From contig CALFXV010000182.1 of the NCBI GenBank assembly GCA_937957775.1, forward strand, positions 1 to 19,713: a stretch of 19,713 nt of DNA. The letters run 5' to 3'. This document shows positions 1 through 19,713 of the stretch, piece after piece. Numbering within the stretch: position 1 is the stretch's first letter; each line of letters begins with the position of its first letter. The notes beneath the pieces were generated by a model, which searched no databases, was not told the origin of the DNA, and was given only the letters and a program-made list of their open reading frames with translations. The DNA comes from an uncultured Methylotenera sp. Lineage in GTDB: Bacteria; Pseudomonadota; Gammaproteobacteria; Burkholderiales; Methylophilaceae. A program made the position numbers and the translations under genes.

Positions 1-225
1 ACAGATGCGATTGCGAAAGAAGAAAAAGTAGAAGAGCCTGCTGCTGACCTTTTAGGTATGGAAGGCATGGATGAAGAAACTGCACATTTGTTAGCATCTA
101 AAGGTGTTTCAACAATGGATGATCTTGCAGATTTAGCTGTGGATGATTTAGTTGATCTAACAAAAATGGATGCAGAACGCGCAAAAACTTTAATTATGAC
201 TGCTCGCGCACCATGGTTTGCATAA
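1..225 (+). CDS. nusA: Transcription termination/antitermination factor NusA, C-terminal fragment
   Basis: This is the last 74 codons of a gene that begins before the window. Frame 1 is open from base 1 to a TAA at 223-225. The visible part is the C-terminal acidic-repeat (helix-hairpin-helix-like) domain: an acidic linker, then a repeat beginning GMDEETAHLLASKGV and ending in the characteristic tail RAPWFA. This domain is typical of proteobacterial NusA, where it contacts the RNA polymerase alpha subunit and masks the RNA-binding domains. NusA binds RNA polymerase and modulates pausing, intrinsic termination and antitermination. infB follows 85 bases downstream on the same strand, the standard nusA-infB operon order. 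The catalogue-typical S1 and KH domains lie outside the window, so only the end can be judged. Confidence 0.93.
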   Translation, partial: TDAIAKEEKVEEPAADLLGMEGMDEETAHLLASKGVSTMDDLADLAVDDLVDLTKMDAERAKTLIMTARAPWFA

Positions 226-310
226 GGCTTAATAGCAAGACGCGACAATTAAATTTAATTGAAATCATTTGATTTTTAGAAGTGCTGTAAAGAATAGACT
301 GGAGTAACAG

Positions 311-2887: not shown

Positions 2888-3243
2888 TGGCCAAAGAGTT
2901 TTCTAGAAGCCATCGCGTTGCCGAGCAAATGCAACGCGAGTTGGCCGATCTATTGCAGTTTGAAGTGAAAGACCCGCGCGTGTCCATGGTGACGATTACC
3001 GCTGTTGAAGTAACCGGTGACATGGCGCACGCCAAAATTTTCTACAGTGCCAGCAAGCCCAGCGATTCCTTGCAACAAGGCTTAGAAAAATCAGCCGGTT
3101 TCCTACGCACGCAGTTGGCAAAACGCATGTTGCTGCGCACCGTGCCGCAACTGCATTTTGTATACGATGCATCGATAGACAACGGCATGATGATGTCTAA
3201 ATTAATAGACCAAGCCTTGGCAACCGGTTCAGATCCTAGCTAA
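2887..3243 (+). CDS. rbfA: 30S ribosome-binding factor RbfA
   Basis: RbfA is a small KH-type protein that binds the immature 30S subunit near the 16S rRNA 5' helix and is needed for late maturation and cold adaptation. The 118-residue product opens with SRSHRVAEQMQRELADLL, then has the conserved KDPRVSMVTITAVEVT strand and an FYSA segment, and ends in a region (LHFVYDASIDNG) typical of the family. Length is slightly shorter than E. coli RbfA (about 133), because the disordered acidic tail is short. The ATG shares its A with the infB stop codon, so translation is probably coupled. It sits in the classical infB-rbfA-truB order. Codon use shifts here to GCC/CGC-rich, unlike infB. Confidence 0.96.
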   Translation: MAKEFSRSHRVAEQMQRELADLLQFEVKDPRVSMVTITAVEVTGDMAHAKIFYSASKPSDSLQQGLEKSAGFLRTQLAKRMLLRTVPQLHFVYDASIDNGMMMSKLIDQALATGSDPS

Positions 3244-3265
3244 TTCCCCTGACAAAGCAGCGCCC

Positions 3266-4171
3266 TTGCAGTTTAGACGAGCTAAAAAAAACATCAGTGG
3301 TGTGCTGCTATTGGATAAGCCATTAGGCTACTCATCCAATCAAGCCTTGCAACAAGTCAAACACCTATTACAGGCCGCCAAAGCCGGCCATACCGGCACA
3401 TTGGACCCCTTGGCGACCGGCTTGCTGCCCTTGTGTTTTGGTGAAGCCACAAAGTTTGCCCACTATTTAACCGAAGCCGACAAAGTCTATGAGGCTACCT
3501 TAAAGTTGGGCATTACGACCGACACCGGTGACGCCGAAGGCCGCGTTGTATCCGAGCAGGCGGTGGCAGTCAGCGCAGAACAATTCAGCGCCGTTTGCCT
3601 GCAGTTTTTAGGCGAAATTAGCCAAGTACCCCCCATGTATTCAGCCTTAAAACACGAAGGCAAAGCCCTCTACGAGTACGCCAGAGCCGGCGTTGAAATC
3701 GCCCGCAACGCCCGTGCCGTGACCATACACAGCATAGCCGTATTGGATTTTGCAGGCGATGTGGCCAACATCAGGGTCAAGTGCAGCAAAGGCACATACA
3801 TCCGCACTTTGGCTGAAGACATAGGCGCCAAGCTAGGTTGCGGTGCCCATTTAATTGGTTTGCGCCGCACTGCCACGGCCAATTATCAGATAGAACAAAG
3901 CATCAGCATGGACGAATTTGTTGCCCTGTCGGCCGAACAACAGCTAGCCAAGCTGCTGCCGTCAGACAGTGCCGTGGCCTATTTGCCGGCCATAGAGTTG
4001 GATGCGGAAAGCGCATTTTATTTAAGCCAAGGTCAGGCAGTTTGGCAAAGTGGCTTGATTCCAGAGGGGCTGATTCGCCTATACAATCCGCAAAAATTAT
4101 TTCTCGGCTTGGGTGAGCGTCAGTCCGATGGCAAGGTAGGCCCAAAACGCTTAATCGTGCAGCCGCTTTAG
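3266..4171 (+). CDS. truB: tRNA pseudouridine(55) synthase TruB
   Basis: TruB converts U55 in the T-loop of tRNAs to pseudouridine and also acts as a tRNA-folding chaperone. The 301-residue product has the family opening ISGVLLLDKPLGYSSNQALQ, the catalytic motif GHTGTLDPLATG with the nucleophilic aspartate at 47, the KVYEA strand, the VPPMYSALKHEGKALYEYAR segment, and the KCSKGTYIRTLAEDIG motif (about 173-188). The start is a TTG at 3266. It fits the family's N-terminus; the frame is open only back to 3209 and offers no ATG or GTG. No clear Shine-Dalgarno is seen, so it probably depends on coupling to rbfA, 22 bases upstream. A C-terminal PUA-like segment follows the catalytic domain. Confidence 0.96.
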   Translation: MQFRRAKKNISGVLLLDKPLGYSSNQALQQVKHLLQAAKAGHTGTLDPLATGLLPLCFGEATKFAHYLTEADKVYEATLKLGITTDTGDAEGRVVSEQAVAVSAEQFSAVCLQFLGEISQVPPMYSALKHEGKALYEYARAGVEIARNARAVTIHSIAVLDFAGDVANIRVKCSKGTYIRTLAEDIGAKLGCGAHLIGLRRTATANYQIEQSISMDEFVALSAEQQLAKLLPSDSAVAYLPAIELDAESAFYLSQGQAVWQSGLIPEGLIRLYNPQKLFLGLGERQSDGKVGPKRLIVQPL

Positions 4172-4194
4172 CCATGAAAAAAGCATAAAAAAGA

Positions 4195-4223
4195 TTGATA
4201 AATCATCTGTTTATGCCTATAAT
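4195..4223 (+). promoter_or_regulatory. Sigma70-type promoter for rpsO
   Basis: TTGATA (4195-4200) is followed by exactly 17 bases and a perfect TATAAT (4218-4223), placing the start near 4230, about 83 bases before the rpsO start codon. This is one of the best promoters in the window and fits a highly expressed ribosomal protein gene that can be transcribed apart from truB. A 7-bp inverted repeat, GCATAAA (4183-4189) and TTTATGC (4210-4216), brackets the -35 box and abuts the -10, so it could be an operator; that is inference. Confidence 0.8.
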
Positions 4224-4229
4224 GCGCGG

Positions 4230-4312
4230 CTCATGCAAATGAATGCATAGGCGGTTTAGTAAATAGGCTGCCTTTACATTGACGCAAAACATCTAAATAT
4301 TAGGATAAAGTT
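4230..4312 (+). promoter_or_regulatory. rpsO 5' leader, possible S15 autoregulatory region
   Basis: The predicted transcript carries an 83-base leader. It contains ATGCA (4233-4237) pairing with TGCAT (4244-4248), and a potential AGGC (4249-4252)/GCCT (4270-4273) pairing further along. The Shine-Dalgarno AGGAT lies at 4302-4306. S15 represses its own mRNA through structured leaders in several bacterial groups, each with a different fold, so a regulatory role is plausible. I cannot match it to a specific known S15-leader class. Confidence 0.3.
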
Positions 4313-4582
4313 ATGGCAACCACTGCAGCAGAACGCGCTAAGATCGTTAGTGAATTTCAACAAGCTAAGAATGATACCGGTAGTCCAGAAGTGCAAGTTG
4401 CGCTTTTAACCAGCCGCATTACTTACTTAACTGAGCATTTCAAAACCAATAAAAAAGACCACCATTCACGTCGTGGCTTATTGGCTTTGGTAAGTCAGCG
4501 CCGTAAATTGTTGGATTACTTAAAACGTGAAAGCGCAGAACGTTATCAAACACTGATTGGTCGTTTAGGCATTCGTAAGTAA
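4313..4582 (+). CDS. rpsO: 30S ribosomal protein S15
   Basis: S15 is a primary-binding small-subunit protein that contacts helices 20-22 of 16S rRNA and forms an intersubunit bridge. The product is 89 residues, exactly the usual bacterial length. Conserved stretches include [35 protein letters not shown] and the rRNA-contacting [11 protein letters not shown]. The ATG has an AGGAT Shine-Dalgarno 7 bases upstream. It has its own promoter and a terminator behind it and precedes pnp, the order seen in E. coli and most proteobacteria. Confidence 0.98.
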
Positions 4583-4648
4583 TTGCGACCTATCCATTAT
4601 TCGCAAAACATTACGCATCATTGCATTTTGTTTTGCCTATAAAACAAT

Positions 4649-4687
4649 AAGCCGATAGCGCTGCATGAGCAGCACTTCGGCTTTTTT
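4649..4687 (+). terminator. Rho-independent terminator after rpsO
   Basis: AAGCCGA (4649-4655) pairs with TCGGCTT (4677-4683). An inner stem GCTGC (4660-4664)/GCAGC (4669-4673) closes on an ATGA loop. A six-T run (4682-4687) follows. The structure lies 66 bases after the rpsO stop and would end most rpsO transcripts, with read-through or a separate promoter feeding pnp. Confidence 0.8.
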
Positions 4688-4758
4688 GTTATGCCATTGT
4701 TAAAATGGTTTTAAAGATTTTCCCTCAAATTTGTATTGAGATAAATCGATATTGTGCG

Positions 4759-4784
4759 TTCGTTATTGGGTTGTGAATAACGAA
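4759..4784 (+). promoter_or_regulatory. Hairpin in the pnp 5' leader
   Basis: TTCGTTATT (4759-4767) and AATAACGAA (4776-4784) are perfect reverse complements around an 8-base loop, ending 25 bases before the pnp start codon and just ahead of its Shine-Dalgarno. It has no T run, so it is not a terminator. In E. coli the pnp leader folds into an RNase III-processed stem through which PNPase represses itself. This shorter stem is in a comparable place, but a comparable function is inference. Confidence 0.5.
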
Positions 4785-4809
4785 TATTAAAATGAGAAAA
4801 GGATAAAAA

Positions 4810-6921
4810 ATGTTTAATAAAGTAACGAGAAGCATACAATACGGTGCGCACACGCTCACCTTAGAAACAGGTGAAATTTCACGTCAAGCCGATGCGGCCG
4901 TGATGGTTAGTTATGGCGATACAGTGGTATTGGTTGCTGTCACCAGTAAAAGCGAAGTAAAACCAGGCCAAGATTTTTTCCCGTTGACCGTGGATTACAT
5001 GGAAAAAACCTATGCAGCCGGTAAAATCCCAGGTGGTTTTTTCAAACGCGAAGGCCGTCCTTCAGAAAAAGAAACCCTAACCAGCCGTTTAATTGACCGT
5101 CCATTGCGTCCATTATTCCCAGAAGCGTTCTACAACGAAGTGCAAGTGGTGGCAACCGTGTTGTCATCCGATCCAGAAATCGATGCGGACATTCCAGCCA
5201 TTATTGGTGCCTCAGCGGCCATGGCCATTTCTGGCATTCCATTTTTCGGTCCATTAGGCGCGGCGCGCGTGGGTTACATCAACGATGCTTACGTGCTAAA
5301 CCCAAGTAAAACAGAATTAGAAACCTCGCAAATGGATTTAGTCGTGGCTGCAACTGAAACTGCCGTGATGATGGTGGAATCCGAAGCCAAAGAATTATCA
5401 GAAGAAGTCATGCTAGGTGCGGTGGTTTACGGCCACGAGCAAATGCAAGCCGTGATCAGCATGATCAACGAGCTAACAGCCGAAGCCGGTAAAGATGCAT
5501 GGGATTGGGTTGCCCCAGAACCAGACACCGCTTTAATTGAAAAAGTAACTAAATTGGCTGCCGACGACATCAACGCTGCCTTCCAAATTAAAGCCAAAGG
5601 CGCACGCTCAGCAAAATTGAGTGAAATCACCAGCCGCGTATTAGCCGAATTGGTCACTGAAGAAACGTCTACTGCTGAAGCCAACAAAATTAAAACAGAG
5701 TTGTTTAATTTAGAAGCCAAAACCGTGCGTAGCCAAATCTTAAACGGTGAGCCACGTATTGATGGCCGTGATACCCGTACTGTCCGTCCTATTAGCATCC
5801 GTACTGGCGTATTGCCACGCACCCATGGTTCAGCCTTGTTTACCCGTGGTGAGACGCAAGCATTGGTTGTTGCTACTTTAGGTACTGGCCGCGATGAACA
5901 AGTGATCGATGCCTTGCAAGGTGAGTTTAAAGACCACTTTATGTTGCATTACAACATGCCGCCGTATGCCACAGGTGAAACAGGCCGCGTGGGCACACCA
6001 AAACGCCGTGAAATTGGTCACGGTCGTTTAGCCAAACGTGCTTTGATTGCTGCCTTGCCTAACAAAGAGGACTTTGATTACAGCATGCGCGTGGTATCAG
6101 AAATTACTGAATCCAACGGTTCTAGCTCCATGGCTTCAGTTTGTGGCGGTTGCTTAGCCTTGATCGACGCCGGCGTGCCGATGAAAAATCACGTGGCCGG
6201 TATTGCCATGGGTTTGATTAAAGAAGGCAATCGCGTAGCGGTATTGACTGACATCTTAGGCGATGAAGATCACCTAGGTGACATGGACTTTAAAGTAGCG
6301 GGTACCGAAGACGGCATCACGGCTTTGCAAATGGACATAAAAATCACCGGCATCACGGCACAAATTATGCAAGTGGCTTTAGCCCAAGCAAAAGAAGGCC
6401 GTACGCACATTTTAGGCATCATGAAAAAAGCCATGAGCAATGCCAACACTGAAATGTCCGCATTTGCGCCACGCATCATTACCATGAAAATCAATCCAGA
6501 AAAAATCCGCGATGTGATTGGTAAAGGCGGCGCAGTGATCCGCGCCTTAACCGAAGAAACCGGCACCACCATCGATATCGATGATACCGGTACAGTGAAA
6601 ATTGCTTGCACCAGCTCCGAGCAAGGCGCAGAAGCGCAACGCCGTATTGCTGAGATTACCGCGGAAGTGGAAATCGGCAATGTCTACGAAGGTACCGTGC
6701 TTAAATTGTTGGATTTCGGTGCCATCGTTTCATTGATTCCAGGTAAAGACGGTTTGTTGCACATTTCACAAATTGCGCATCAACGCGTGAATGCCGTTAG
6801 CGACTTCCTAAAAGAAGGCGACGTGGTTAAAGTGAAAGTGGTGGAAGCAGATGAAAAAGGCCGCGTGCGTTTAAGCATGAAAGCCTTGATAGATCCACCT
6901 GCAGGCGAAACACAAGAGTAA
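4810..6921 (+). CDS. pnp: Polyribonucleotide nucleotidyltransferase (PNPase)
   Basis: PNPase is the trimeric phosphorolytic 3'-5' exoribonuclease of the RNA degradosome; it releases nucleoside diphosphates and can also add heteropolymeric tails. The 703 residues hold a first RNase PH domain (about 13-145, with [21 protein letters not shown]), an alpha-helical linker domain (about 150-230), a second, catalytic RNase PH domain (about 310-545) with the acidic cluster [13 protein letters not shown] at 481-493, a KH domain with the GKGG loop at 571-574, and an S1 domain from about 624 to 694. The ATG follows an AAAAGGA Shine-Dalgarno. Two stop codons stand in tandem (TAATAA). Its position after rpsO is canonical. 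No disruption is seen. Confidence 0.98.
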
Positions 6922-6949
6922 TAAGTAGCAACTTGCGCTAACACGCAAT

Positions 6950-6977
6950 AAAAAAGGCACCCTAGGGTGCCTTTTTT
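6950..6977. terminator. Bidirectional terminator between pnp and the DoxX gene
   Basis: A 16-base perfect palindrome, GGCACCCTAGGGTGCC (6956-6971), is flanked by six A's on the left and six T's on the right. It works as an intrinsic terminator on both strands: for pnp from the left and for the convergent DoxX-family gene, whose stop is at 6993, from the right. Confidence 0.88.
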
Positions 6978-6992
6978 AGTATTAAGCACGGC

Positions 6993-7361
6993 TTATTTTT
7001 TCAAGTTATCTAAACTGCAAGCCGTGACGGGATTTAAATGCAACATTAACAACCCACCGGCGATGGCTAAGTATTGCAATAACGGTAAGTGCAATAGCAC
7101 CGCGATGATCACGGCATAGATGGCCATGCTTAAGGCCGCCACTTTGGTTTTATAGCCTAATAGCAAGGCTAGACCACCGACTAACTGCACCAAAATAATT
7201 AAGGGAGCAAAGATGCTGGCTAAGCCTAAGCTGCCAAGGCCTGCTTGGTATTGCAGGTAGCCATCTGGATTACTAAAGAAGCTCAAGATCAACATGGCGA
7301 TTTGTAGTAAAAAAACTTGTGCCAGTAATATGCGGCCTAGCGCGCTGAAATAACATTGCAT
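6993..7361 (-). CDS. DoxX family membrane protein
   Basis: This is a 122-residue inner-membrane protein of the DoxX type. Four hydrophobic segments are visible (about 8-27, 46-68, 72-92 and 94-108), with the family-typical glycines in the second and third (VQLVGGLALLLGYKTKVAAL). Distant members include the DoxD subunit of thiosulfate:quinone oxidoreductase and actinobacterial MRP-associated proteins, but most proteobacterial DoxX proteins have no established role and none is claimed here. I chose the ATG at 7361 rather than the one at 7412: the upstream 17 codons read as non-family sequence, and an AAAAAGG Shine-Dalgarno precedes 7361. It is divergent from the Fae-like gene. A weak cysteine near the C-terminus (TACSL) is not part of a recognised motif. 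Confidence 0.8.
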   Translation of the reverse strand: MQCYFSALGRILLAQVFLLQIAMLILSFFSNPDGYLQYQAGLGSLGLASIFAPLIILVQLVGGLALLLGYKTKVAALSMAIYAVIIAVLLHLPLLQYLAIAGGLLMLHLNPVTACSLDNLKK

Positions 7362-7446
7362 GAGGTAACCTTTTTCAAAATTGAACAAAAAATAACAGCA
7401 TGCATAATGCACCGAAGCCGTTAAATTCGCAAGTCCACGGCAAGTT

Positions 7447-7466
7447 TGGCGCGTCTAGCGGCGCCA
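7447..7466. repeat. Small inverted repeat in the DoxX/Fae-like divergent region
   Basis: TGGCGC (7447-7452) and GCGCCA (7461-7466) are perfect reverse complements around 8 bases. The site sits between the divergent DoxX-family and Fae-like genes, just upstream of the putative promoter of the latter, where an activator or repressor could bind. No known operator consensus is recognised. Confidence 0.35.
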
Positions 7467-7472
7467 GCTAAA

Positions 7473-7499
7473 TTGCTTAATGGCGGCCTATTCTATAAA
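7473..7499 (+). promoter_or_regulatory. Possible promoter of the Fae-like gene
   Basis: TTGCTT (7473-7478) and TATAAA (7494-7499) are separated by 15 bases, two shorter than ideal. A transcript would start near 7506, about 45 bases before the ATG at 7551. The suboptimal spacing leaves this tentative. Confidence 0.35.
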
Positions 7500-7550
7500 A
7501 TCGCGTTGTTAACACTTTGCTAATTAACCAACACCATTCAAGGATGACAC

Positions 7551-8093
7551 ATGTCAAAAATTATATTTAAAGCCGGCGAAGCCACTATCTACACAGAAGG
7601 CAAAGACACCGGTGCAGCCATGCCGGAAATTTTAATTGGCAGCGTGGACGGCCCCGTGGGCGCCGCTTTTGCCAACATGATGGCGCAAAGCAAAGGCCAT
7701 ACCGCTATGTTTGCCGTGCGTGATTTAAACCAGTTGGTGCGCCCAGCTTGTATGATGGCGCCAAAAGTGACGCTTAAAGACAGCGCCAACATTGAATTGT
7801 TTGGTGGTTTGGTGCAAGCCGCGACCGCCGATGCGATTTTAGATTGCGTGATTGAAGGCATCATTCCTAAAGATCAGGTGAACGATTTGTGCATCATCAG
7901 CTTGGTATGGATAGACCCACGTGCCGCCAAAGATGAAAACCTAGACAAAGCCGACATGTACAAAAACAACTACGAGGCCACCAAATTGGCCATCAAACGC
8001 GCCTTGAATGACGAGCCATCCATAGACGAATTGATCGCCAACCGTCATAAAATCAAGCACTGCATGTGGGAAGAAAGCTGGGGCGATATTTAA
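7551..8093 (+). CDS. Formaldehyde-activating enzyme (Fae) family protein, active-site histidine absent
   Basis: Genuine Fae condenses formaldehyde with tetrahydromethanopterin to methylene-H4MPT in methylotrophs. This 180-residue product is clearly of the family: GEA near the N-terminus, ILIGSVDGPVGAAFANMM (27-44), PKVTLKD, EGIIPKDQVNDLCIISLVWI and NNYEATKLAIKRALNDEPS all align with conserved Fae blocks. The position of the conserved histidine in the V-A-H-I-D-L motif of Methylorubrum Fae is Met24 here (AAMPEILIG), and the histidine in the later PAQHG segment is also not kept (LVQAA). It is therefore more like the Fae2/Fae3-type paralogues of uncertain role than a housekeeping Fae. The ATG follows AAGGAT at 7540-7545. 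It stands alone, with a terminator behind it. Methylotrophy of the host is inferred mainly from this gene. Confidence 0.85.
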   Translation: MSKIIFKAGEATIYTEGKDTGAAMPEILIGSVDGPVGAAFANMMAQSKGHTAMFAVRDLNQLVRPACMMAPKVTLKDSANIELFGGLVQAATADAILDCVIEGIIPKDQVNDLCIISLVWIDPRAAKDENLDKADMYKNNYEATKLAIKRALNDEPSIDELIANRHKIKHCMWEESWGDI

Positions 8094-8127
8094 TACGCGC
8101 TAAACCTGCTTGAATAGATTCAACAAT

Positions 8128-8153
8128 AAAAATCGGCTTAGGCCGATTTTTTT
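8128..8153. terminator. Bidirectional terminator shared by the Fae-like gene and mutY
   Basis: TCGGC (8133-8137) pairs with GCCGA (8142-8146) around TTAG, and the stem is extended by five A-T pairs (A8128-A8132 with T8147-T8151); T's run to 8153. It lies 35 bases after the Fae-like stop. On the - strand it overlaps the end of mutY, whose stop codon is in the loop. Confidence 0.82.
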
Positions 8154-9199
8154 GTTTGAGCTTCGGCTAACAGCAACTGCAGGATTTTTCTCACCGGCGT
8201 GGGAATGCCCGCCGCGTTCGCTTCCTCTAAGCTAAGCCAGCTGTATTGCGGCTCGCTCACGTGGCTGGAGCGCTGCGCTACGCGCATGGGCTGCACGTGT
8301 ATGCTCAGCTTGTAATGACTGAAAGCATGGCTAATCGTGGCCAAGGGTGCTTGGCTGTTTGCGCTCAAGCCAAAGCGGGTTTGCACCAAAGCCGCTAAGT
8401 CATCTGCAGCATCGGTCTCGGGAAAGCACCACAAGCCACCCCAAATGCCGCTAGACGGACGCTTTTCTAGCATGACTTGCTCGCCATGGCGTAACACCAG
8501 CATGGTGGTTTGTTTTTGCGGAATAGTTTTTTTAGGTTTAGGCGTGGGCAGCGTGTTCACGCAGTTTGCTTGCAAGGCCGCGCAACTGCCTTGCATGGGG
8601 CAAGCAGCGCATTTGGGTTGGCTGCGTGTGCAGACCGTGGCACCCAAGTCCATTAAGCCTTGGGTATAGGCCACCATGCCTTGTTGCGGCAACAAGGATT
8701 CGGCTAGCTGCCATAACTGTTGCTCGACTTTTTTAGAGCCGGTCCAACCAGACACCATAAAGTGCCTAGCCAGTACGCGTTTTACATTGCCATCCAAGAT
8801 GGTTTGCACTTGGCCAAAGGCAAATGAGGCAATGGCCGCCGCCGTGGAGCGGCCTATGCCAGGCAAGCTTTGCATAAGGGTAAAATCATCGGGAAACACA
8901 CCGGCGTAGTCAGTGGCAATGCGCTGCGCGGTTTTGTGTAGATTGCGGGCGCGAGAGTAATAGCCTAAGCCACTCCAATATTGCAAGACCTCGTCTTGGC
9001 TGGCTTGAGCCAAGCTCGCTAGGTTAGGAAAACGCTGCATAAACTTTTGGTAATAGCCTATCACCGTGCTCACTTGTGACTGCTGCAGCATGATTTCTGA
9101 CACATAGATGGCGTAGGCATCGGTGGTGTTTTGCCAAGGCAAATCGTGTCGGCCGTGTTGCTTTTGCCAGGCAATCAGGCGGTTAGCAAAGTCCGACAT
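8138..9199 (-). CDS. mutY: A/G-specific adenine glycosylase MutY
   Basis: MutY removes adenine mispaired with 8-oxoguanine or guanine, starting base-excision repair. The 353-residue length matches E. coli (350). Catalytic Glu36 lies in SEIMLQQSQV; the helix-hairpin-helix is LPGIGRSTAAAI (112-123); the catalytic Asp136 is in ILDGNVKRV. The [4Fe-4S] cysteines are C190, C197, C200 and C206 (C-X6-C-X2-C-X5-C). A C-terminal NUDIX-like 8-oxoG-recognition domain spans about 228-345. The ATG at 9199 overlaps the upstream asmA stop (TGATG) and has AGGG 8 bases upstream. The last codons (KKSA, stop) are encoded inside the arm and loop of the shared terminator. It is probably the last gene of a - strand transcription unit with the RluF-like gene, uppP and asmA. 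Confidence 0.96.
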   Translation of the reverse strand: MSDFANRLIAWQKQHGRHDLPWQNTTDAYAIYVSEIMLQQSQVSTVIGYYQKFMQRFPNLASLAQASQDEVLQYWSGLGYYSRARNLHKTAQRIATDYAGVFPDDFTLMQSLPGIGRSTAAAIASFAFGQVQTILDGNVKRVLARHFMVSGWTGSKKVEQQLWQLAESLLPQQGMVAYTQGLMDLGATVCTRSQPKCAACPMQGSCAALQANCVNTLPTPKPKKTIPQKQTTMLVLRHGEQVMLEKRPSSGIWGGLWCFPETDAADDLAALVQTRFGLSANSQAPLATISHAFSHYKLSIHVQPMRVAQRSSHVSEPQYSWLSLEEANAAGIPTPVRKILQLLLAEAQTKKSA

Positions 9200-10854
9200 C
9201 AGGGTGGCCCTTGCAGGCTAATGCGCACGTTTTTCGCCTGTGTGTCGTTCAGACTTAACTGGCCGATGCGGATGTCGCCACTGGCCTGGTAGTCTTTGAG
9301 CACATCTAAATCCCAATGCGGTTTGGCCGATGGGGATTTATTTGCCGGATTATTTTTGTCTGCAGTTTGGTAACGATTAAGATCCAATTTATCAACGGCT
9401 AAATTGATTTTGTATGCCGGCGAGGCTTGCAAGGTCATGGCCACCTCGCCATGAATTTGGCTGTCGTCCAGTTTCAGCCTTAAGCCTTTAGCCCGTAATT
9501 TTTTGCCATCACTAAGCAACCGCGCTTGCAGGCTGTGCAATTGGTAGGGCGCGTAACTGATGTTGGCTAGCTTAAGTTGACCGTCTAATTGCAGCTTGTT
9601 TAAGGCCGACAAATCGATAGGGCTGGCCTCGCTCCTGGCTGTCTTATTTGGGCTGGCCAGGTATGCATAGGCATCCCAATTTTGCGCAGCCAAATTGAAT
9701 TTAATGTTAGGCCCAGCTGCTTGGCTAAGTTGAATGTCGCCGTCTAACAGGCCAGCACCGCTGGCAAAATGAAAGCGACTTTGACCGCTCTTGTGTTTAA
9801 AGTCGGCTTTAGCCGTGAGCTCAAAATCGGCTTTTAAGTCGGCGGATTCGCGTGATTGATCCTGCCAATTCATGCGTCCGTTTAGCTGGCTTATGTCCAC
9901 GATAGCGGTCGACCATTGCGCCTTGATGGGCGTGGAAAATTGACTAGTTAGTAAGCGCTTACCGTTAGCGTAAGTGATGTCAGCATTGGTTTTAGCAATA
10001 TTCAATTCTAAAGCATTGGCCTGCACGCCCTTGAGCTGCCAGCGCATTTTTAAGTCGTGCGGTGGGCTGTTAAAGACCACATTTGCTTGCACCGCGGGGA
10101 CAATTAAACCCTGTTTGTTAACGCTCATTTTATTGGCGTGCAGGCTTGCATTTAACTTGGTCATTGCCAATTCACCCTGTGTGGACAGGCGTAAATTCTC
10201 TGCTAAAAAAACACGCTCCTTGCTCTGGTATAACAGCCGTGCTTGCAAATTTACCTTGGTTTTTAATTTGGCCGCTTGGGCCTCAAGCAAAAAATCGGCC
10301 ACCAAATCGACCGCTTTATCTTGGGCAATGCGGCCGGTTTTAATAGACAGATCGCTCACTTGAATACGCTGATTGCTGACTTCATTTAGGTAATCTAAGC
10401 GGCTGTTTTTAACGATCAAGCCATCGATGTCGTATGAAAAAGTGGCATTCGAATCGCCGTCAAACAAATCGGAAAAATTGTTGCTGCCGTCCGCGTGTTG
10501 GATCAGCGTCGCCTGCACGCCATCCAAATACACCGTGCCCACCACTAATTTTTTTTGCAGCAGCGGCAAGATGGCTAGCGAGACTTTTACCCTGGCCACC
10601 GCGGCAAACGGTTTTTGGCTGGCTTGTTCAGACAAGCTGACGCGACCTAAATCGATGCCTAACTTAGGCCAAAACGCCATGCGGATGTCGCCGTCTAGCA
10701 TCAGCGTGCGACCAGTTTTTTCCTGCACTAGATTGATGATGGTAGGCTTGTAGTCATTCGGATTAAAACACAGCAGTAAGGTCAGCCAGGCGGCAAGCAA
10801 TAGGCTGAGCAGGCCAGCAAGGGTCAATGCTAGGATCTTGAAAGAACGGTTCAT
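9199..10854 (-). CDS. asmA: AsmA family protein, C-terminally truncated
   Basis: AsmA-family proteins are inner-membrane-anchored periplasmic proteins with a lipid-transfer-like beta-groove, linked to outer-membrane assembly and phospholipid traffic. The 551 residues start with a membrane anchor (about 5-30, LALTLAGLLSLLLAAWLTLL), followed by the diagnostic FNPNDYKPTIINLVQEKTGR and LDGDIRMAFWPKLGIDLGRV. A long beta-rich periplasmic part follows. The reading frame ends at NVRISLQGPP, soon after the IRIGQLSLNDTQAKNVR segment. Family members such as E. coli AsmA continue for roughly 200 more residues with the conserved AsmA C-terminal domain. That part is absent, not frameshifted, since mutY begins on the next base. 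The ATG at 10854 has AAAGG upstream. It may be partly functional or a decayed remnant. Confidence 0.85.
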   Translation of the reverse strand: MNRSFKILALTLAGLLSLLLAAWLTLLLCFNPNDYKPTIINLVQEKTGRTLMLDGDIRMAFWPKLGIDLGRVSLSEQASQKPFAAVARVKVSLAILPLLQKKLVVGTVYLDGVQATLIQHADGSNNFSDLFDGDSNATFSYDIDGLIVKNSRLDYLNEVSNQRIQVSDLSIKTGRIAQDKAVDLVADFLLEAQAAKLKTKVNLQARLLYQSKERVFLAENLRLSTQGELAMTKLNASLHANKMSVNKQGLIVPAVQANVVFNSPPHDLKMRWQLKGVQANALELNIAKTNADITYANGKRLLTSQFSTPIKAQWSTAIVDISQLNGRMNWQDQSRESADLKADFELTAKADFKHKSGQSRFHFASGAGLLDGDIQLSQAAGPNIKFNLAAQNWDAYAYLASPNKTARSEASPIDLSALNKLQLDGQLKLANISYAPYQLHSLQARLLSDGKKLRAKGLRLKLDDSQIHGEVAMTLQASPAYKINLAVDKLDLNRYQTADKNNPANKSPSAKPHWDLDVLKDYQASGDIRIGQLSLNDTQAKNVRISLQGPP

Positions 10855-10896
10855 GGTAAGCGGCCTTTAGCTGGCATTAAGGAGCTAAGCTGACCC

Positions 10897-11694
10897 TTAA
10901 AGGAAATACAGCAAAACCAGAACGCCAAACACGATGCGATACCAAGCAAACACTTTGAAATCGTGGCTGGCAACAAAGCGCAATAAAAAGCGGATGGCAA
11001 TTAAGGCAGCTAAAAAGGCCGTGATGAAACCGACGGCAAACAGCCCGGCATCGTTGATGGATAAAATGTCGCGGCTTTTGTAAACATCCAAAATGGTGGC
11101 AGCAAACATAATGGGGATGGCCAAGAAAAAGGAAAATTCGGTGGCAGTTTTTCTATCCAAGCCAAATAGCATGCCGCCTAATATGGTGGCGCCGGCGCGC
11201 GATACCCCAGGAAACAAGGCCAGCGATTGGGCCAAACCAATTTGCACGGCTTGCTTAGGGCCGATTTTATCTATGTGCACGGTGCTGGCGGTGAGGGCCA
11301 AGCGTTCTATCCACAATATGGCAAAGCCGCCGACGATTAAGGCCACGGCCACGGTGATGGGTGAGAACAAATACTGTTTGATGGTGCTGTGTAAGGCCAA
11401 GCCCAAGATGGCCGCGGGCAGAAAAGCCAAAAACAAATTCAAGACAAATTGTTGCGCCTGGCTTTCGCTGCCCAAATGCAAAGCCGTATCGATTAGCTTG
11501 CGGCGGTATTCCCAACACACGGCCAAAATCGCCGCCAGTTGGATGACAATTTCAAACACTTTGCCTTTGCCGTCGTTAAAGTGCAGGTAGTCGCCAACGA
11601 TGATCAAGTGGCCGGTGCTGCTGATGGGTAGGAATTCGGTGGCGCCTTCTACCACCCCCAATATAAAAGCCTTCACTAATAACAGGATGTCCAT
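10897..11694 (-). CDS. uppP: Undecaprenyl-diphosphatase UppP (BacA)
   Basis: UppP dephosphorylates undecaprenyl diphosphate to the monophosphate lipid carrier for peptidoglycan and other envelope glycans, and confers bacitracin resistance. The 265 residues form about eight hydrophobic segments. The first active-site motif is EGATEFLPISSTGHL, with Glu16, Glu20 and Ser26. The second is PGVSRAGATILGG, with Arg166; the usual serine after that arginine is alanine (A167), seen in other bacteria as far as I recall and not expected to abolish activity. The ATG at 11694 has no strong Shine-Dalgarno; a perfect 10-bp palindrome (GACCCGGGTC, 11698-11707) lies just upstream. It is 35 bases after the RluF-like gene and 42 bases before asmA, so the genes are probably co-transcribed. 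Confidence 0.96.
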   Translation of the reverse strand: MDILLLVKAFILGVVEGATEFLPISSTGHLIIVGDYLHFNDGKGKVFEIVIQLAAILAVCWEYRRKLIDTALHLGSESQAQQFVLNLFLAFLPAAILGLALHSTIKQYLFSPITVAVALIVGGFAILWIERLALTASTVHIDKIGPKQAVQIGLAQSLALFPGVSRAGATILGGMLFGLDRKTATEFSFFLAIPIMFAATILDVYKSRDILSINDAGLFAVGFITAFLAALIAIRFLLRFVASHDFKVFAWYRIVFGVLVLLYFL

Positions 11695-11729
11695 GCTGAC
11701 CCGGGTCTTTTTCTAAATGGTAAGGGTGC

Positions 11730-12905
11730 TTAAAAGCGTTCGTCGTGGCGTAAATAGCGCCATTGCCCAGGTGGCAATTTACCTAAATTAACGCTGCCTA
11801 TGCGCACGCGTTTTAGACCCACGACATGCAAACCGACCATCTCGCACATGCGACGAATTTGCCGTTTTTTGCCTTCGCGTAAGACAAAGCGCAATTGGTC
11901 TTCATTCTGCCAACTGACTTTGGCCGGTTTAAGTTTTTCGCCGTCTAGGCTCAAACCAAAGTTAAGGCGTTGCATGTCGGCATCGCTTAATTCGCCTTCC
12001 ACGCGCACCAAGTATTCTTTCTCTACCGTGGAATCTTCACCGATTAAATGGCGCGCCACGCGGCCATCCTGAGTAAGCACTAACATACCGGTAGAGTCAA
12101 TGTCCAAGCGACCTGCTGGCGCAAGCCCAGTTAAGAATCGGCGTTGAAATTCTTTGCGGTGTTGCGGGTTGATATTGGGGTCATCCAGCCATTCGTTATC
12201 CGGGTGCACCAAGACGATGGCCGGCTCGTAATCGTCTTCCGCTTGGCCGCTGACGTAGCCAACCGGCTTATGCAAAATAATGGTCACCGATTCGCTTTGC
12301 ACTTCGTGCGCGTAACTGCTGATAATAATTTCTGCATCGGGATTAATCCGCGTGCCCAGCGTGTCGATGATTTCGCCGTCCACCATGACCCAGCTGTTGG
12401 CTATCCATTCATCGGCTTCGCGGCGTGAACAAATGCCACGCTCGGCCATGACTTTAGATAAACGCGGCAAGTCCGTGCTGATGGCGGTGGATTTGTAAGC
12501 GGCTTTGGCGGCGGCACCGTATTGGGGTGTGGCTAAGCTATCGTAACCGTCGCGCACTTTGCCGCCGCGGCGTGGCGCTTGCCGGTATTGCGGTTCATTT
12601 CTATCCGGGCGCGGAGCGGTGCGTGTGTCTAGCCCTGCCGGTTTGGCTGGTTTAACGTTGTTTGAATTTACCGCGGCTGGCGCGTCCTCGCTATAGGGGC
12701 TGCCGTGCGCTTTGCCATCAAAACGGTGATTGCGTTGCGTGGCTTTTTCAATAGTCGGTGCCGCGGCTTTTTCAGCACTTGGCGCCATGACTTTAGCAGC
12801 TGACACGGAGCGATCGCGCACGGTGCTGCTGCCACGACGCAGGGGCGCTTTGCTGGCTTTAGGCTGGGTGTCGTCGGATTTTTTGTTGAGTTTTAGGGTA
12901 GTCAA
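11730..12905 (-). CDS. RsuA/RluB/RluF-family rRNA pseudouridine synthase, RluF-like, with long basic N-terminal extension
   Basis: The enzyme isomerises a uridine in 23S rRNA to pseudouridine. An S4 RNA-binding domain lies at about 148-205 (RLSKVMAERGICSRREADEWI), followed by the catalytic domain with PAGRLDIDSTGMLVLT, where Asp268 is the nucleophile. The C-terminal block EGKKRQIRRMCEMVGLHV resembles RluF (23S U2604) more than RluB or RsuA, so RluF-like is preferred, with RluB as the alternative. The first ~145 residues are low-complexity and rich in Lys, Arg, Ala and Pro, with many SK, AP and RR pairs; this is probably a disordered RNA-binding tail, which in RluB and RluF usually sits at the C-terminus. 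The start at 12905 leaves 165 bases to thiC. It appears to be the first gene of the - strand run to mutY. Confidence 0.86.
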   Translation of the reverse strand: MTTLKLNKKSDDTQPKASKAPLRRGSSTVRDRSVSAAKVMAPSAEKAAAPTIEKATQRNHRFDGKAHGSPYSEDAPAAVNSNNVKPAKPAGLDTRTAPRPDRNEPQYRQAPRRGGKVRDGYDSLATPQYGAAAKAAYKSTAISTDLPRLSKVMAERGICSRREADEWIANSWVMVDGEIIDTLGTRINPDAEIIISSYAHEVQSESVTIILHKPVGYVSGQAEDDYEPAIVLVHPDNEWLDDPNINPQHRKEFQRRFLTGLAPAGRLDIDSTGMLVLTQDGRVARHLIGEDSTVEKEYLVRVEGELSDADMQRLNFGLSLDGEKLKPAKVSWQNEDQLRFVLREGKKRQIRRMCEMVGLHVVGLKRVRIGSVNLGKLPPGQWRYLRHDERF

Positions 12906-13014
12906 AATAGTCTGCTATGGTGGATTTTATGCAGGCTATTTTAACAAAATAAACGGCAGCACTTGTAATTATTAGCGTTGACAATTATTAAAGCAGGGTC
13001 ACGCCATAGGGGCA

Positions 13015-13044
13015 ACAAAAAACAGGCGCAAGGCCTGTTGTTTT
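13015..13044. terminator. Terminator downstream of thiC
   Basis: AACAGGC (13021-13027) pairs with GCCTGTT (13033-13039) around a five-base loop. On the - strand it is followed by a T-rich run (complement of the A's at 13017-13022), ending thiC transcripts 27 to 50 bases after the stop. On the + strand the T run is weaker (TTGTTTTG). Confidence 0.7.
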
Positions 13045-13070
13045 GTTAGGCTTAGTACATGGCTGTAGCC

Positions 13071-14975
<1,905 letters not shown>

Positions 14976-14995
14976 CTATAATGTAATCAACATAG

Positions 14996-15033
14996 AAAAG
15001 CCGCCTATGCGCACCAGATAATGTTGCTGGCTT
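14996..15033 (-). promoter_or_regulatory. Putative expression platform of the thiC riboswitch
   Basis: Downstream of the aptamer on the - strand, AAGCC (complement of 15029-15033) can pair with GGCTT (complement of 14998-15002), followed by a short T-rich tract, as a weak intrinsic terminator; CCAG...CTGG adds an inner stem. The GGCGGC of the 3' arm (15000-15005) is also exactly complementary to GCCGCC inside the aptamer (15054-15059). The two pairings exclude each other, which would make a transcription switch. The terminator stem is short, so this is tentative. Confidence 0.4.
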
Positions 15034-15042
15034 AGCATTGCA

Positions 15043-15136
15043 TGCTTTCCTACGGCGGCATGACCCGCGTCAGGTTCAAAGGGTGTTTCTCACTAATTAA
15101 GGCCGCGTCACCGCAACCCCAACCAGACCCCTAGCA
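15043..15136 (-). promoter_or_regulatory. TPP riboswitch (THI element) controlling thiC
   Basis: On the - strand the leader carries the TPP-aptamer signature: GTGAGA (consensus CTGAGA), then ACCC, TTTGAACCTGA, then GCGGGTCATGCCGC, closing as P4/P5, and CGTAGGAAAGC. P1 can form from TGCT (complement of 15133-15136) and AGCA (complement of 15043-15046); P2 forms from GGGGT and ACCC. P3 is long, with GGGGTTGCG pairing CGCGGCCTT through several G-U pairs and a GTGA tetraloop. The gene behind it, thiC, is the classic target. In the family, bound TPP lowers expression. Confidence 0.93.
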
Positions 15137-15144
15137 ATAGACGA

Positions 15145-15173
15145 AAATTACGCTAAAACGGCAGTAAAAGCAA
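15145..15173 (-). promoter_or_regulatory. Promoter of thiC
   Basis: On the - strand, TTGCTT (complement of 15168-15173) and TAATTT (complement of 15145-15150) are spaced by exactly 17 bases. The predicted start, around 15138, falls just before the first base of the riboswitch P1 stem, which supports the call. Confidence 0.6.
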
Positions 15174-15226
15174 GTTTTATGCGTGACTGACCCTCCGGCC
15201 TGAAAGCCTGCAGTGGGGCGTGACTT

Positions 15227-15235
15227 TGCTATAAT
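15227..15235 (+). promoter_or_regulatory. Extended -10 promoter of the PAP2/LTA-synthase-like gene
   Basis: TGCTATAAT gives a perfect -10 (TATAAT, 15230-15235) with an upstream TGn extension. No good -35 is found 16-18 bases upstream, as often in extended -10 promoters. The start would be near 15242, giving a leader of about 47 bases to the TTG at 15289. The 322-base gap between thiC and this gene therefore holds two divergent promoters and the riboswitch. Confidence 0.6.
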
Positions 15236-15288
15236 GGGCCACCATTAACCGCTGCTTAAGTTGGCAGCGATTTGCATAGAGCTTCCAT

Positions 15289-17991
15289 TTGTTTAAATTA
15301 AATCGACCTAGCGTGGCCTGGCATTTTTGGCTGTGGCATCTGATAGTGCCCTTGCTGGCAGGCCTGCTGCTGGCTTTTGTCTACCCCTTGAGCGGCTGGG
15401 ATAGACTATGGATAGCGCCATTTTACGACGCGCAAACCCAGACTTTTCCATTAAGAAACCATGCCGGATTAGAAGCCGTGCTGCACCAAGGCTTGAGAAA
15501 CTTGATGATAATCGTCAGTCTGCTCGCTTTAGAGGGCGGCTTGGTCGGTTACGGCTTAAAGCGCTGGCCGCGCGCTTCCGCTCAAGCTACTTTGCTTGCG
15601 TTTGATTGGTTGAAAGCGCATCGCAGGTCATTGTTGTGGGTGTTTGTCGGCATGCTGATCAGCACCACGGTGGTGTCGCTGTTAAAGCATTTTAGCCTGC
15701 ACGACTGCCCGTGGAATTTACAAGAATACGGTGGCACGCAACCTTACATCGCCCTGTTCGGCAGCTTGCCAGCCGGTGTGGCTGCCGGCCATTGCTTCCC
15801 GGGCGGCCACGCCAGTGGCGGGTTTGCCTTAGTGGCCGTGTATTTTGCCTTTAGAGACAGCCAAGCTCGCTTAGCCAAATGGGGTTGGATCCTAGCGCTG
15901 TTGTTTGGCAGCGTGATGGCGTATACGCAGATGGTGCGCGGCGCGCATTTTATGTCACACAATTTATGGACCGCCTGGCTAGTATGGATGCTCTTGCTGG
16001 CGCAATACCTTATTTGGCCGCCGCAGGCTGGCTTGCCCACGCCCAGTTCTTCTGAGCGCAAAAAAGCCTGGTCATTCTTGCGCTTTGTGGCCGTCAGTGC
16101 GCTGTTGGTTTGGCTGGGTTTGCGGCTAATCTTGTGGTTGAGTTTGTCGCTTCATTTAGGCCACAACCCCATGTCTTGGAACGAGGCTTTAGGCATGTTG
16201 GCTTGGGGCGTTTGGTTTGATCTGAATGCCTTGTGTTACCTGCTCATACCGTTTTTATTGGCCTCGCTGTTGTTGAGCAAGCGGGCGCGGCAAGCAACAT
16301 GGCTCAGCGTTGCCCGTCGCTTGATGGCCTGGGTGTTGCTATTTGGTTTGCTGTTTGCGGCGGTGGCCGAGTGGGTTTTTTGGCAAGAATTCAGCACGCG
16401 CTTTAATTTCATCGCGGTGGATTATTTAATTTACACCAAAGAAGTCATAGGCAATATACGCCAATCCTATCCCGTGCCGTTGATCTTGCTCTGCATAGCG
16501 CTAGTGGCAGCCGGTTTGTTATGGCTAGCCAATCAAACCGGCCGTTTTGCTAATCGGCCTCTGTCCGCTAAGCAAAAAGTGCGTTTGTTGCTGTGTGCGC
16601 TGGCGTTGCCTAGCCTTAGTTTTCAGTTGGCCAATGTCGATCAAATGGAATTTAGTCGCAATGCCTATGCCAATGAATTGGCGGGCAACGGTTTGTTCAG
16701 TTTTGCCGCGGCCGCTAGGCGCAACGAATTGGATTACGATAAATTTTACAGGCAGCTGGACCCGGCCCAAGCCAAGTCCGTATTGCAGGCCTTGCATGCC
16801 GATCGCCAGCCGCTAAGCGCCAATAGAAAGTCAGCCGCCAGCACTAATCTGGCCGTCACGCCGCTTAAGCCGTTTAGCCGACGCCCCAAGCAGGTGGTGC
16901 TGATCTCGGTAGAAAGCCTGTCGGCCGAGTATTTAGGCGTGCACGGTAACCCAGCTAATCTCACCCCCTACTTGGATAAATTGGCGGCCGACAGCGTGGT
17001 GTTCGATCGCGCCTTTGCCACCGGCACGCGCACCGTGCGTGGCTTGGATGCCTTATCCATAGCCATCCCGCCCATCCCAGGACAGGCCGTGGTGCACCGG
17101 CCCAATAGCGACCGTTTGGCTGGCATAGGCGAGTTGTTGCATGAGCGCGGTTTTGCCACCTACTTTATTTATGGCGGTTACGGTGTGTTTGATAACATGA
17201 ACCACTACTTTGCCAGCAACCATTACCGCGTGGTCGACCGCACCGATTTTGATGAAAAAACCGTGCAATCAGAAAACGTTTGGGGGGTGGACGACGAAAG
17301 CCTGTTTAATCATGCCACGCAAATTTTGGATGCGCAGCACGCCCTTGGTCAGCCTTTTTTTGCGCACATTATGACCACCAGCAATCATCGCCCCTATACG
17401 TTTCCAGCCGGTAAAATTGATTTACCCAGCGGCAGCAGGGAGGCGGCCGTCAAATACAGCGATTACGCCATAGGCCAATTTATCGCCCAAGCCAAAACCA
17501 AACCTTGGTTTAAAGACACCTTGTTCGTGATAGTGGCAGACCATTGTGCGGCGGTGGCCGGTAAAACCAAATTGCCAGTGGCGAAATACCATATTCCCTT
17601 ATTTTTCTATGCTCCTGGCTTGTTGCCCGCGCGGCATTACATGCGCGTAGCCAGTCAAATTGATGTGGTGCCTACCTTGTTGGATGCCTTGGGCGTGCCG
17701 GGTGCCGATTATTTTTACGGGCAGTCTTTATTTAAAGCCGAGGCAGAAAAATGGCCGGAACGGGCGTTTATTAGTAATTACCAATCCTTGGGTTATTTGA
17801 AAAACGGCACGCTGACAGTGCTATCGCCTAAGCGCCGCGTTGAAGCCTATGCTGTCGATGGGAAAAATTTTGAGTCTAGGCCGATAGTGCCGCAGTCTAA
17901 CTTGGTCGATGAAGCGGTGGCGTATTACCAAACGGCCAGCCGTGCTTATAAAACCGGCGCCTTAAAAATGCACTCAACAAAAGAACAGTAA
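15289..17991 (+). CDS. PAP2-family phosphatase fused to an LTA-synthase-like (alkaline-phosphatase-fold) transferase
   Basis: A 900-residue inner-membrane protein with two enzyme domains. Residues about 10-245 are a PAP2-type lipid phosphatase with several membrane segments: K133 with D139-C140-P141, then FPGGHASGG (PGGH 171-174), then RGAHFMSH (217-224). The third motif is diverged, with His224 where most PAP2 enzymes have Asp. Residues about 262-450 give five more membrane segments. From about 534 a periplasmic sulfatase/alkaline-phosphatase-fold domain like LtaS, OpgB and related phosphoglycerol/phosphoethanolamine transferases follows: metal ligand Glu542 (VESLS), the nucleophile-region TGTRTVRG (578-585), and Asp751-His752 (VADHC). 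It probably modifies an envelope lipid or glycan; substrate is unknown. The TTG start at 15289 is the best available; GTG at 15313 is the alternative. Confidence 0.85.
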   Translation: MFKLNRPSVAWHFWLWHLIVPLLAGLLLAFVYPLSGWDRLWIAPFYDAQTQTFPLRNHAGLEAVLHQGLRNLMIIVSLLALEGGLVGYGLKRWPRASAQATLLAFDWLKAHRRSLLWVFVGMLISTTVVSLLKHFSLHDCPWNLQEYGGTQPYIALFGSLPAGVAAGHCFPGGHASGGFALVAVYFAFRDSQARLAKWGWILALLFGSVMAYTQMVRGAHFMSHNLWTAWLVWMLLLAQYLIWPPQAGLPTPSSSERKKAWSFLRFVAVSALLVWLGLRLILWLSLSLHLGHNPMSWNEALGMLAWGVWFDLNALCYLLIPFLLASLLLSKRARQATWLSVARRLMAWVLLFGLLFAAVAEWVFWQEFSTRFNFIAVDYLIYTKEVIGNIRQSYPVPLILLCIALVAAGLLWLANQTGRFANRPLSAKQKVRLLLCALALPSLSFQLANVDQMEFSRNAYANELAGNGLFSFAAAARRNELDYDKFYRQLDPAQAKSVLQALHADRQPLSANRKSAASTNLAVTPLKPFSRRPKQVVLISVESLSAEYLGVHGNPANLTPYLDKLAADSVVFDRAFATGTRTVRGLDALSIAIPPIPGQAVVHRPNSDRLAGIGELLHERGFATYFIYGGYGVFDNMNHYFASNHYRVVDRTDFDEKTVQSENVWGVDDESLFNHATQILDAQHALGQPFFAHIMTTSNHRPYTFPAGKIDLPSGSREAAVKYSDYAIGQFIAQAKTKPWFKDTLFVIVADHCAAVAGKTKLPVAKYHIPLFFYAPGLLPARHYMRVASQIDVVPTLLDALGVPGADYFYGQSLFKAEAEKWPERAFISNYQSLGYLKNGTLTVLSPKRRVEAYAVDGKNFESRPIVPQSNLVDEAVAYYQTASRAYKTGALKMHSTKEQ

Positions 17992-18007
17992 AGGCAGCGC
18001 AATTGCC

Positions 18008-18036
18008 CTTTATCCCTGATCGTCCTGCGCTATAAT
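18008..18036 (+). promoter_or_regulatory. Promoter of pcm
   Basis: A perfect TATAAT (18031-18036) sits 28 bases before the pcm ATG. The best -35 at 17-base spacing is CTTTAT (18008-18013), a poor match; TTGCCC (18004-18009) is too far at 21 bases. The -10 is convincing, the -35 is not. Confidence 0.5.
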
Positions 18037-18064
18037 GATGCTTACATTTTAGGAAGCATGCACC

Positions 18065-18748
18065 ATGACACAAAGCCAAACCAGCCGATTTAGCAGCGCC
18101 AACGATGCGGCTAGATTTAACATGATAGAGCAGCAAATTCGCACTTGGGAGGTGCTCGATCCCGTGGTGCTGGATTTGTTTAATGCCGTGCCTCGCGAAG
18201 CCTTTGTGGCCGAGTCGCAACAAGGCTTGGCGTTTGCTGACATAGAGTTGCCCATAGGCCATGAGCAATCCATGCTCTCACCCAAAATCGAAGGCCGCAT
18301 TTTACAAGCTTTGCAGGTCAAGAAAACCGATAAGGTTTTGCTAGTGGGCACCGGCAGTGGCTACTTAACCGCCTTATTAGCCAAGCAGGCAGCGCACGTG
18401 TATGCCGTTGAAATCGTGCCCGAATTGTCGGCACAAGCCGGCGCCCGTTTGAAGCAACAAGGCATACACAATGTCAGCTTAATGGTGGCCGATGCCGTCA
18501 ACGGTTACGCGGCCGAAGCGCCTTATGATGTGATTGTTTTTGCCGGTTCCTTGCATACATACCCAGTAGCGGTTGAACAAATGCTGAAAATAGGCGGTCG
18601 TATGTTTGTCGTGCACGGGGACTTGCCGATTATGCAAGCGACCTTAAGCCAACGCGTGACCGACGGCGCATGCCGTCAAGAAACCCTATTTGAAACCTGC
18701 TTGCCCCTATTGGCGCATGCCCCTATTGCGAGTCAATTTGAATTTTAA
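18065..18748 (+). CDS. pcm: Protein-L-isoaspartate O-methyltransferase family protein
   Basis: The family methylates isoaspartyl residues in damaged proteins with S-adenosylmethionine so that they can revert to normal aspartate. The 227-residue product has the N-terminal MIEQQIRTWEVLDPVVLDLF, then VPREAFV, and the SAM-binding motif I VLLVGTGSGYLTALLA at 91-106, followed by VYAVEIVPEL. The canonical active-site block around the Ser-Gln-Pro (TISQPY in E. coli) is replaced by HEQSMLSPKIEGRIL, so this is the divergent Pcm-like subgroup found beside tolC genes in proteobacteria; its true substrate is uncertain. The ATG has AGGA 10 bases upstream. The TolC-family gene begins 19 bases after the stop, suggesting co-transcription. 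Confidence 0.88.
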   Translation: MTQSQTSRFSSANDAARFNMIEQQIRTWEVLDPVVLDLFNAVPREAFVAESQQGLAFADIELPIGHEQSMLSPKIEGRILQALQVKKTDKVLLVGTGSGYLTALLAKQAAHVYAVEIVPELSAQAGARLKQQGIHNVSLMVADAVNGYAAEAPYDVIVFAGSLHTYPVAVEQMLKIGGRMFVVHGDLPIMQATLSQRVTDGACRQETLFETCLPLLAHAPIASQFEF

Positions 18749-18767
18749 GCCCACGCAATTGCAAAAA

Positions 18768-19713
18768 ATGACTTGGCGCTCAGCCGTTTGGCTGTTGCTG
18801 GCATTGTTGCTGCCCATGCCCGCCTATGCAGCAGAGCCAGTCAGCTTGCAAGCGCAGCCATTAAAGTTGATGGACGTTTACCAACAAGCTTTAGCGCACG
18901 ACGCCAGCTTGGCTTCGGCCTTAAGCGCCAACCGCGCAGCACAAGAAATAATCGAGCAAGGTAAAGCGCTGTATCGGCCCACGGTAAACTTTAATGCCGA
19001 GACCAATGCGCTGAAGTCCAGCTTTCACTATTTGTCTACCTCATCCACCGATCGGTCGCAGTTTGAGAACTACCGTTACGGGGTGGACGCACGTCAGCCG
19101 ATTTTTCGTCAACAAAATTTAATTCAAATCGACCAAGCTGGCACCCAAGTTAGCATTGCCGACAAGCAGCTTAATGTGGCTCAGCAAGCTTTGATGTTGC
19201 GCACCACGCAAGCGTACTTTGATGTATTAATGGCGCAGGACAGAATTGATTTAATCGTCGCACAAAAAACCGCCATTGCTGCGCAGTTGGCGCAAGCGCA
19301 GGCCAATTTTGACTTGGGCAGTGCCACCATTACCGATGCCAATGAAGCGCAAGCGCGCTACGATTTGGCGGCGGCGCAAGAAATTGCCGCGCTGAACGAA
19401 TTTGAAATTGCTAAACACGCGGTGCAAGCCATCACTGGTCAATTGCCGCAACGCTTAGCCAGTGTCAAACCCCAGCTTAAAGCCAATGAAATGAGCCTCA
19501 GCATGGCCACTTGGCAAGAGCTGGCGCGGCGTTGTGTGCACTGGTTGGGGCAGCCCGATGTGCACGCCGTGGTCATCACGCATGGCACAGACACGCTCGA
19601 AGAAACCGCTTATTTTTTGCAAACGGTTTTGCAACCCGTCAAACCGGTGGCACTGACGTGCGCCATGCTGCCCGCCAATGCGCCTGACAGCGATGGCCCT
19701 GGCAATCTCAAGG
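18768..19713 (+). CDS. TolC-family outer-membrane channel protein, 3' end replaced in frame by asparaginase sequence; incomplete at window end
   Basis: TolC-type proteins form trimeric outer-membrane channels for type I secretion and efflux. From the ATG at 18768: a signal peptide (about 1-21, hydrophobic VWLLLALLLP, cleavage after AYA), then the TolC repeat LMDVYQQALAHDASLASAL, the RPTVNF strand, YGVDARQPIF, and long amphipathic helices through TTQAYFDVLMAQDRIDL, to ITGQLPQRLAS near residue 230. From about residue 240 the frame reads as L-asparaginase, with no stop. Normal TolC proteins have a second repeat of this fold and run about 430-480 residues. No strong Shine-Dalgarno is visible; alternative in-frame starts are ATG 18717 and TTG 18738, inside the end of pcm. 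Whether the chimera is biological cannot be decided from the window. Confidence 0.75.
   Translation, partial: MTWRSAVWLLLALLLPMPAYAAEPVSLQAQPLKLMDVYQQALAHDASLASALSANRAAQEIIEQGKALYRPTVNFNAETNALKSSFHYLSTSSTDRSQFENYRYGVDARQPIFRQQNLIQIDQAGTQVSIADKQLNVAQQALMLRTTQAYFDVLMAQDRIDLIVAQKTAIAAQLAQAQANFDLGSATITDANEAQARYDLAAAQEIAALNEFEIAKHAVQAITGQLPQRLASVKPQLKANEMSLSMATWQELARRCVHWLGQPDVHAVVITHGTDTLEETAYFLQTVLQPVKPVALTCAMLPANAPDSDGPGNLK
19485..19713 (+). other. L-asparaginase-like segment in the TolC reading frame
   Basis: Residues about 240-315 of the preceding frame match the middle of bacterial L-asparaginase: NEMSL, then TWQELARR, the active-site VVITHGTDTLEETAYFL (THGTDT at residues 271-276, carrying the second catalytic Thr and its Asp), KPVALTCAML and DSDGPGNL. 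Asparaginases hydrolyse asparagine to aspartate and ammonia. The N-terminal part, with the first catalytic threonine (GGTIA motif) and about 60 residues, is not present upstream; TolC sequence stands there instead. The segment continues beyond the window. Confidence 0.85.

Follow-up and report, generated by a model that had tools for sequence, protein, structure and literature searches.

A fused reading frame at the contig end

The window, by which we mean the whole 19,713-nucleotide stretch of DNA that was analysed, ends in a single open reading frame on the forward strand (18690-19712) that is still open at the window end. Along this frame, the TolC-family sequence of a Methylotenera-type bacterium gives way to the central part of an asparaginase of Comamonadaceae (Limnohabitans-like) type, and the switch is present in the letters themselves. 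A Pfam search with the 315-residue piece translated from position 18768 placed one OEP repeat at residues 35-224 and the asparaginase domain PF00710 at residues 220-314, the latter passing with a domain score of 81.8 bits against a cut-off of 22.5. The two envelopes overlap by five residues, so the profile borders are soft. The preliminary description of this DNA had reported one frame passing from TolC to asparaginase, and the finding of OEP and PF00710 in the same frame confirms it. The loss of the second TolC repeat that it described was borne out by the single OEP match.

Both halves are incomplete. All eleven NCBIfam models that matched the fused piece scored below their own cut-offs. For TolC, a single OEP stretch was found and TIGR01844 reached 136.6 bits against a cut-off of 225.15; for L-asparaginase, TIGR00520 reached 66.3 of 314.3 bits and TIGR00519 33.2 of 260.5 bits. 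With the TolC family outer membrane proteins (PF02321, TIGR01844) the window shares a normal first repeat, without the second. With the 301-residue L-asparaginase of Limnohabitans and its kin (PF00710, PF17763) it shares the THGTDTLEET block and DGPGNL, but it lacks about the first 69 residues, including GGTIAG, and everything past about residue 136 would lie beyond the window end. No GGTIAG segment is encoded upstream of the right join. The Thr of this N-terminal segment is presumably the asparaginase nucleophile.

Relatives of the TolC half

The truncated tolC occupies 18717-19525 on the forward strand and holds the OEP repeat, with a start predicted from the 467-residue relative P0121. Counted from MTWRSAV, this relative is identical to the TolC half of the window at 251 of 254 residues, and the two diverge directly after WQELA, where P0121 continues as WQELAMLNNLNIQI and the window as WQELARRCVHWLGQ. 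Protein identity of the TolC half to genome G001 was 87%. Locus L032, from a Methylotenera sp. MAG, and G001 gave identical alignments and appear to be the same genome.

The preliminary description had put forward the tolC of relatives as a check. Of the 37 host-genus genomes, 31 carry a TolC match (58-87% identity) that extends to the join at residue 253-255 and lies in an intact frame of 452-493 residues. Among the remaining six, the match in G004 was split into pieces in two frames, that in G009 lay in a shorter frame and that in G029 was no more than a distant TolC (31%); G005, G006 and G008 gave none. In the protein database, residues 1-253 were matched by 4682 of 7997 scored candidates. 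For the best 120 of these 4682 relatives, identity was 91-99% across at least 94% of residues 1-253, and every one of the 120 carries on as normal TolC directly past the join.

Source of the asparaginase half

The asparaginase fragment (19526-19713, forward strand) is of Comamonadaceae type, belongs to PF00710 and is cut off by the window end. It corresponds to about residues 70-136 of relatives of 299-301 residues, in which THGTD lies at residue 92 (n = 5); the asparaginase N-terminus is thus missing, as had been noted earlier. Limnohabitans sp. Jir61 shows 74% protein identity over residues 236-315, and the fragment was matched in 73 of 84 genomes of the genus to which Limnohabitans genome G077 belongs. 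The exact donor was not found among the sequences compared: the best listed protein identity was 79% and the best DNA identity among 37 sites 0.81.

We looked for the same junction in other proteins and loci. The junction region (residues 215-315) was matched by 7810 of 7999 scored protein candidates. Each of the best 120 was an asparaginase, 264-325 residues long, that has PF00710 and PF17763 and no TolC domain. A protein with the same junction, within the length limits of the search, would be expected to rank at the top for this region. Likewise, none of the 80 loci kept of 251 found extends over both halves: 57 of them align with the TolC part and the other 23 with the asparaginase part.

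A deletion fusing two neighbouring genes was considered and ruled out, since PF00710 was detected anywhere in none of the 52 host-genus genomes, in a search that found its positive control in 10 of 14 genomes. Across the wider family, one of 187 genomes (G110) gave a PF00710 match. This match lies at positions 1-482 of locus L160, at a contig edge of G110, which is 76% complete. The G110 piece reads GHGTATLEET and by eye is another asparaginase type; L160 is possibly a stray contig.

Position of the right join

The right join was placed by DNA alignment. The last TolC-like base is 19525 in all five TolC loci aligned locally (L001 and L032-L035), and in the closest relatives (L032-L035) tolC runs on past this base with codons for LNNLNIQIQ. 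Asparaginase-like DNA starts at about the TGG at 19512. Of the 37 asparaginase sites compared, 32 show a downstream identity of 65% or more, and this codon is common to all 32. Upstream of this TGG, the codons of the 32 sites mostly disagree with the window. Because TolC identity extends to 19525 and asparaginase identity begins at 19512, the join must lie within 19512-19525 on the forward strand, slightly downstream of the region near 19465-19510 proposed previously. The window ends 188 bases past 19525.

Both gene families have the W-Q-x-L codons at this place and in the same frame, which explains why the reading frame stays open across the join. The frame had earlier been noticed to be kept, and it is, but the one-in-three chance invoked for it is replaced by this common motif. 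The longest in-register word spanning the join that the window shares with any of the 37 asparaginase sites is 9 bases. Such a word is shorter than the k usually set in assemblers, so a longer one would have to be common to the window and the true donor.

A second change of ancestry inside infB

The left segment (1-2829, forward strand) contains the end of a gene that we take to be nusA and most of one that we take to be infB, and its ancestry lies in another genus. Over window positions 1-2700, which 180 of 187 genomes of the host family (presumably Methylophilaceae) matched, G176 of genus g41, in the same family, was 92% identical, the next best genome 80% and G001 74%. The 300-base pieces starting at 1-2501 were 66-79% identical to G001. 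Over 2400-4600 the order was reversed, with 93% identity to G001 and 72% to G176.

The switch from G176 to G001 falls inside infB at 2816-2835 (forward strand). Upstream of it, 227 of the 229 bases of 2601-2829 equal those of G176 (L120), and downstream all 70 bases of 2831-2900 equal those of G001. Positions 2816-2829 and 2831-2835 (14 and 5 bases) are identical in the window, G176 and G001; base 2815 is that of G176, base 2836 that of G001, and base 2830 that of neither. This join leaves the 858-residue infB frame open. GC content, taken in 500-base windows, was 0.40-0.48 for starts at 1-2501 and 0.38-0.59 further on; the two ranges overlap, so it is weak evidence for the left join. The tolC switch had been called the sharpest discontinuity of the window, a rank that does not hold now that infB contains a second sharp change of ancestry.

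Between the joins lies the main segment (2836-19511), assigned to one Methylotenera-type genome by the identity of 300-base pieces to G001 (loci L112, L113 and L001). Pieces starting at 2751-19251 were 79.9-99.3% identical to G001, with three exceptions: those at 13251 and 13501 matched no compared locus, and that at 13751 matched L034 only. The region 13070-14500 is covered by all five other host-genus genomes. Identity was 92.7-99.3% for pieces starting at 2751-9001 and 79.9-97.3% for later ones; it was lowest in tolC, at 80-89%, and in the piece starting at 12501, at 80.5%. In these pieces and in the coverage of 13070-14500, no further break as sharp as the two joins was seen in the host segment.

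A separate observation concerns 6949-6978, which lies just past a gene ending at 6921 and at which 30 of 30 bases match G001 on the opposite strand also. The slightly longer stretch 6939-6978 gives an 85% match elsewhere in G001 and is perhaps an inverted, terminator-like repeat.

Origin of the contig

The window changes ancestry twice, at 2816-2835 and at 19512-19525, and tolC is intact in its relatives. The nearest genomes differ from segment to segment (G176 and G001 on either side of the left join, Methylotenera and Comamonadaceae on either side of the right). The partners may share sequence at the joins: the left one has 14 and 5 common bases around one odd base, and the right one the W-Q-x-L codons, with at most 9 exact bases in common with the asparaginases compared. 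Foreign DNA at both ends of one 19.7-kb contig favours mis-assembly over gene fusion. We therefore consider it very likely that the window is a chimeric contig, mis-assembled from a mixed sample. In that case about 2836-19511 would derive from a single Methylotenera-type genome, the left end from a different genus within its family and the last 188 bases from a Comamonadaceae bacterium, and the assembler may have stepped between genomes at short common words, at tolC as at infB. If the window is chimeric in this way, the fused frame is not a gene, and the tolC-asparaginase fusion is probably not real. The preliminary description had left two possibilities, a true rearrangement and a junction made in assembly; the intact tolC of relatives and the origin of the asparaginase in other bacteria speak for the junction and against the rearrangement.

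Assembly graphs linked by shared k-mers can yield chimeric contigs, an assembler fault described in one review (PMC7299287). The window resembles such inter-genome metagenome contigs in holding more than one genome per contig and apparently in changing ancestry where the partners have short stretches in common, and is unlike them in that the partners at the right join are not close relatives. For two unrelated genomes of 2.5 Mb, the calculated number of words shared by chance is about 11 at a length of 20 bases and 3 at 21. Counting against a chimeric assembly are the absence of a donor among the sequences compared, the 9-base word and the single PF00710 match among the 187 family genomes. That the known word is no longer than this may reflect the lack of the true donor among the sites compared.

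The right join could also have arisen in the laboratory, through a template switch during amplification or library making where two molecules have a short sequence in common, with the assembler then tracing the chimeric reads. The short in-frame motif fits this equally well, as does the brevity of the known common word. However, separate events would be needed at both ends of one contig, and we regard this origin as improbable. Either an unsampled donor shares a longer word or the join is a laboratory chimera, and in both cases it would not mark a gene.

Real recombination in one Methylotenera strain, in which tolC was joined to an asparaginase fragment arriving from Comamonadaceae and both were truncated, would account for the open frame and is helped by the apparent presence of freshwater bacteria in both groups, judging from record titles, but it is very unlikely, as the fusion was seen in no relative (37 host-genus genomes, 80 loci and the best-listed protein relatives), PF00710 was absent from the host-genus genomes searched, tolC would be halved, the infB end needs a second, unrelated event and the window stops so soon after the join. 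Slimmer still is the chance of a Methylotenera strain with a true in-frame fusion, whose product would be a broken asparaginase piece carried by half of a channel protein with its signal peptide.

With a chimeric assembly as the preferred reading, a genome, an infB tree or a search for fusion proteins should draw on this contig only once it has been cut at about 2816-2835 and 19512-19525. In a protein tree the hybrid infB would go undetected, because its frame stays open.
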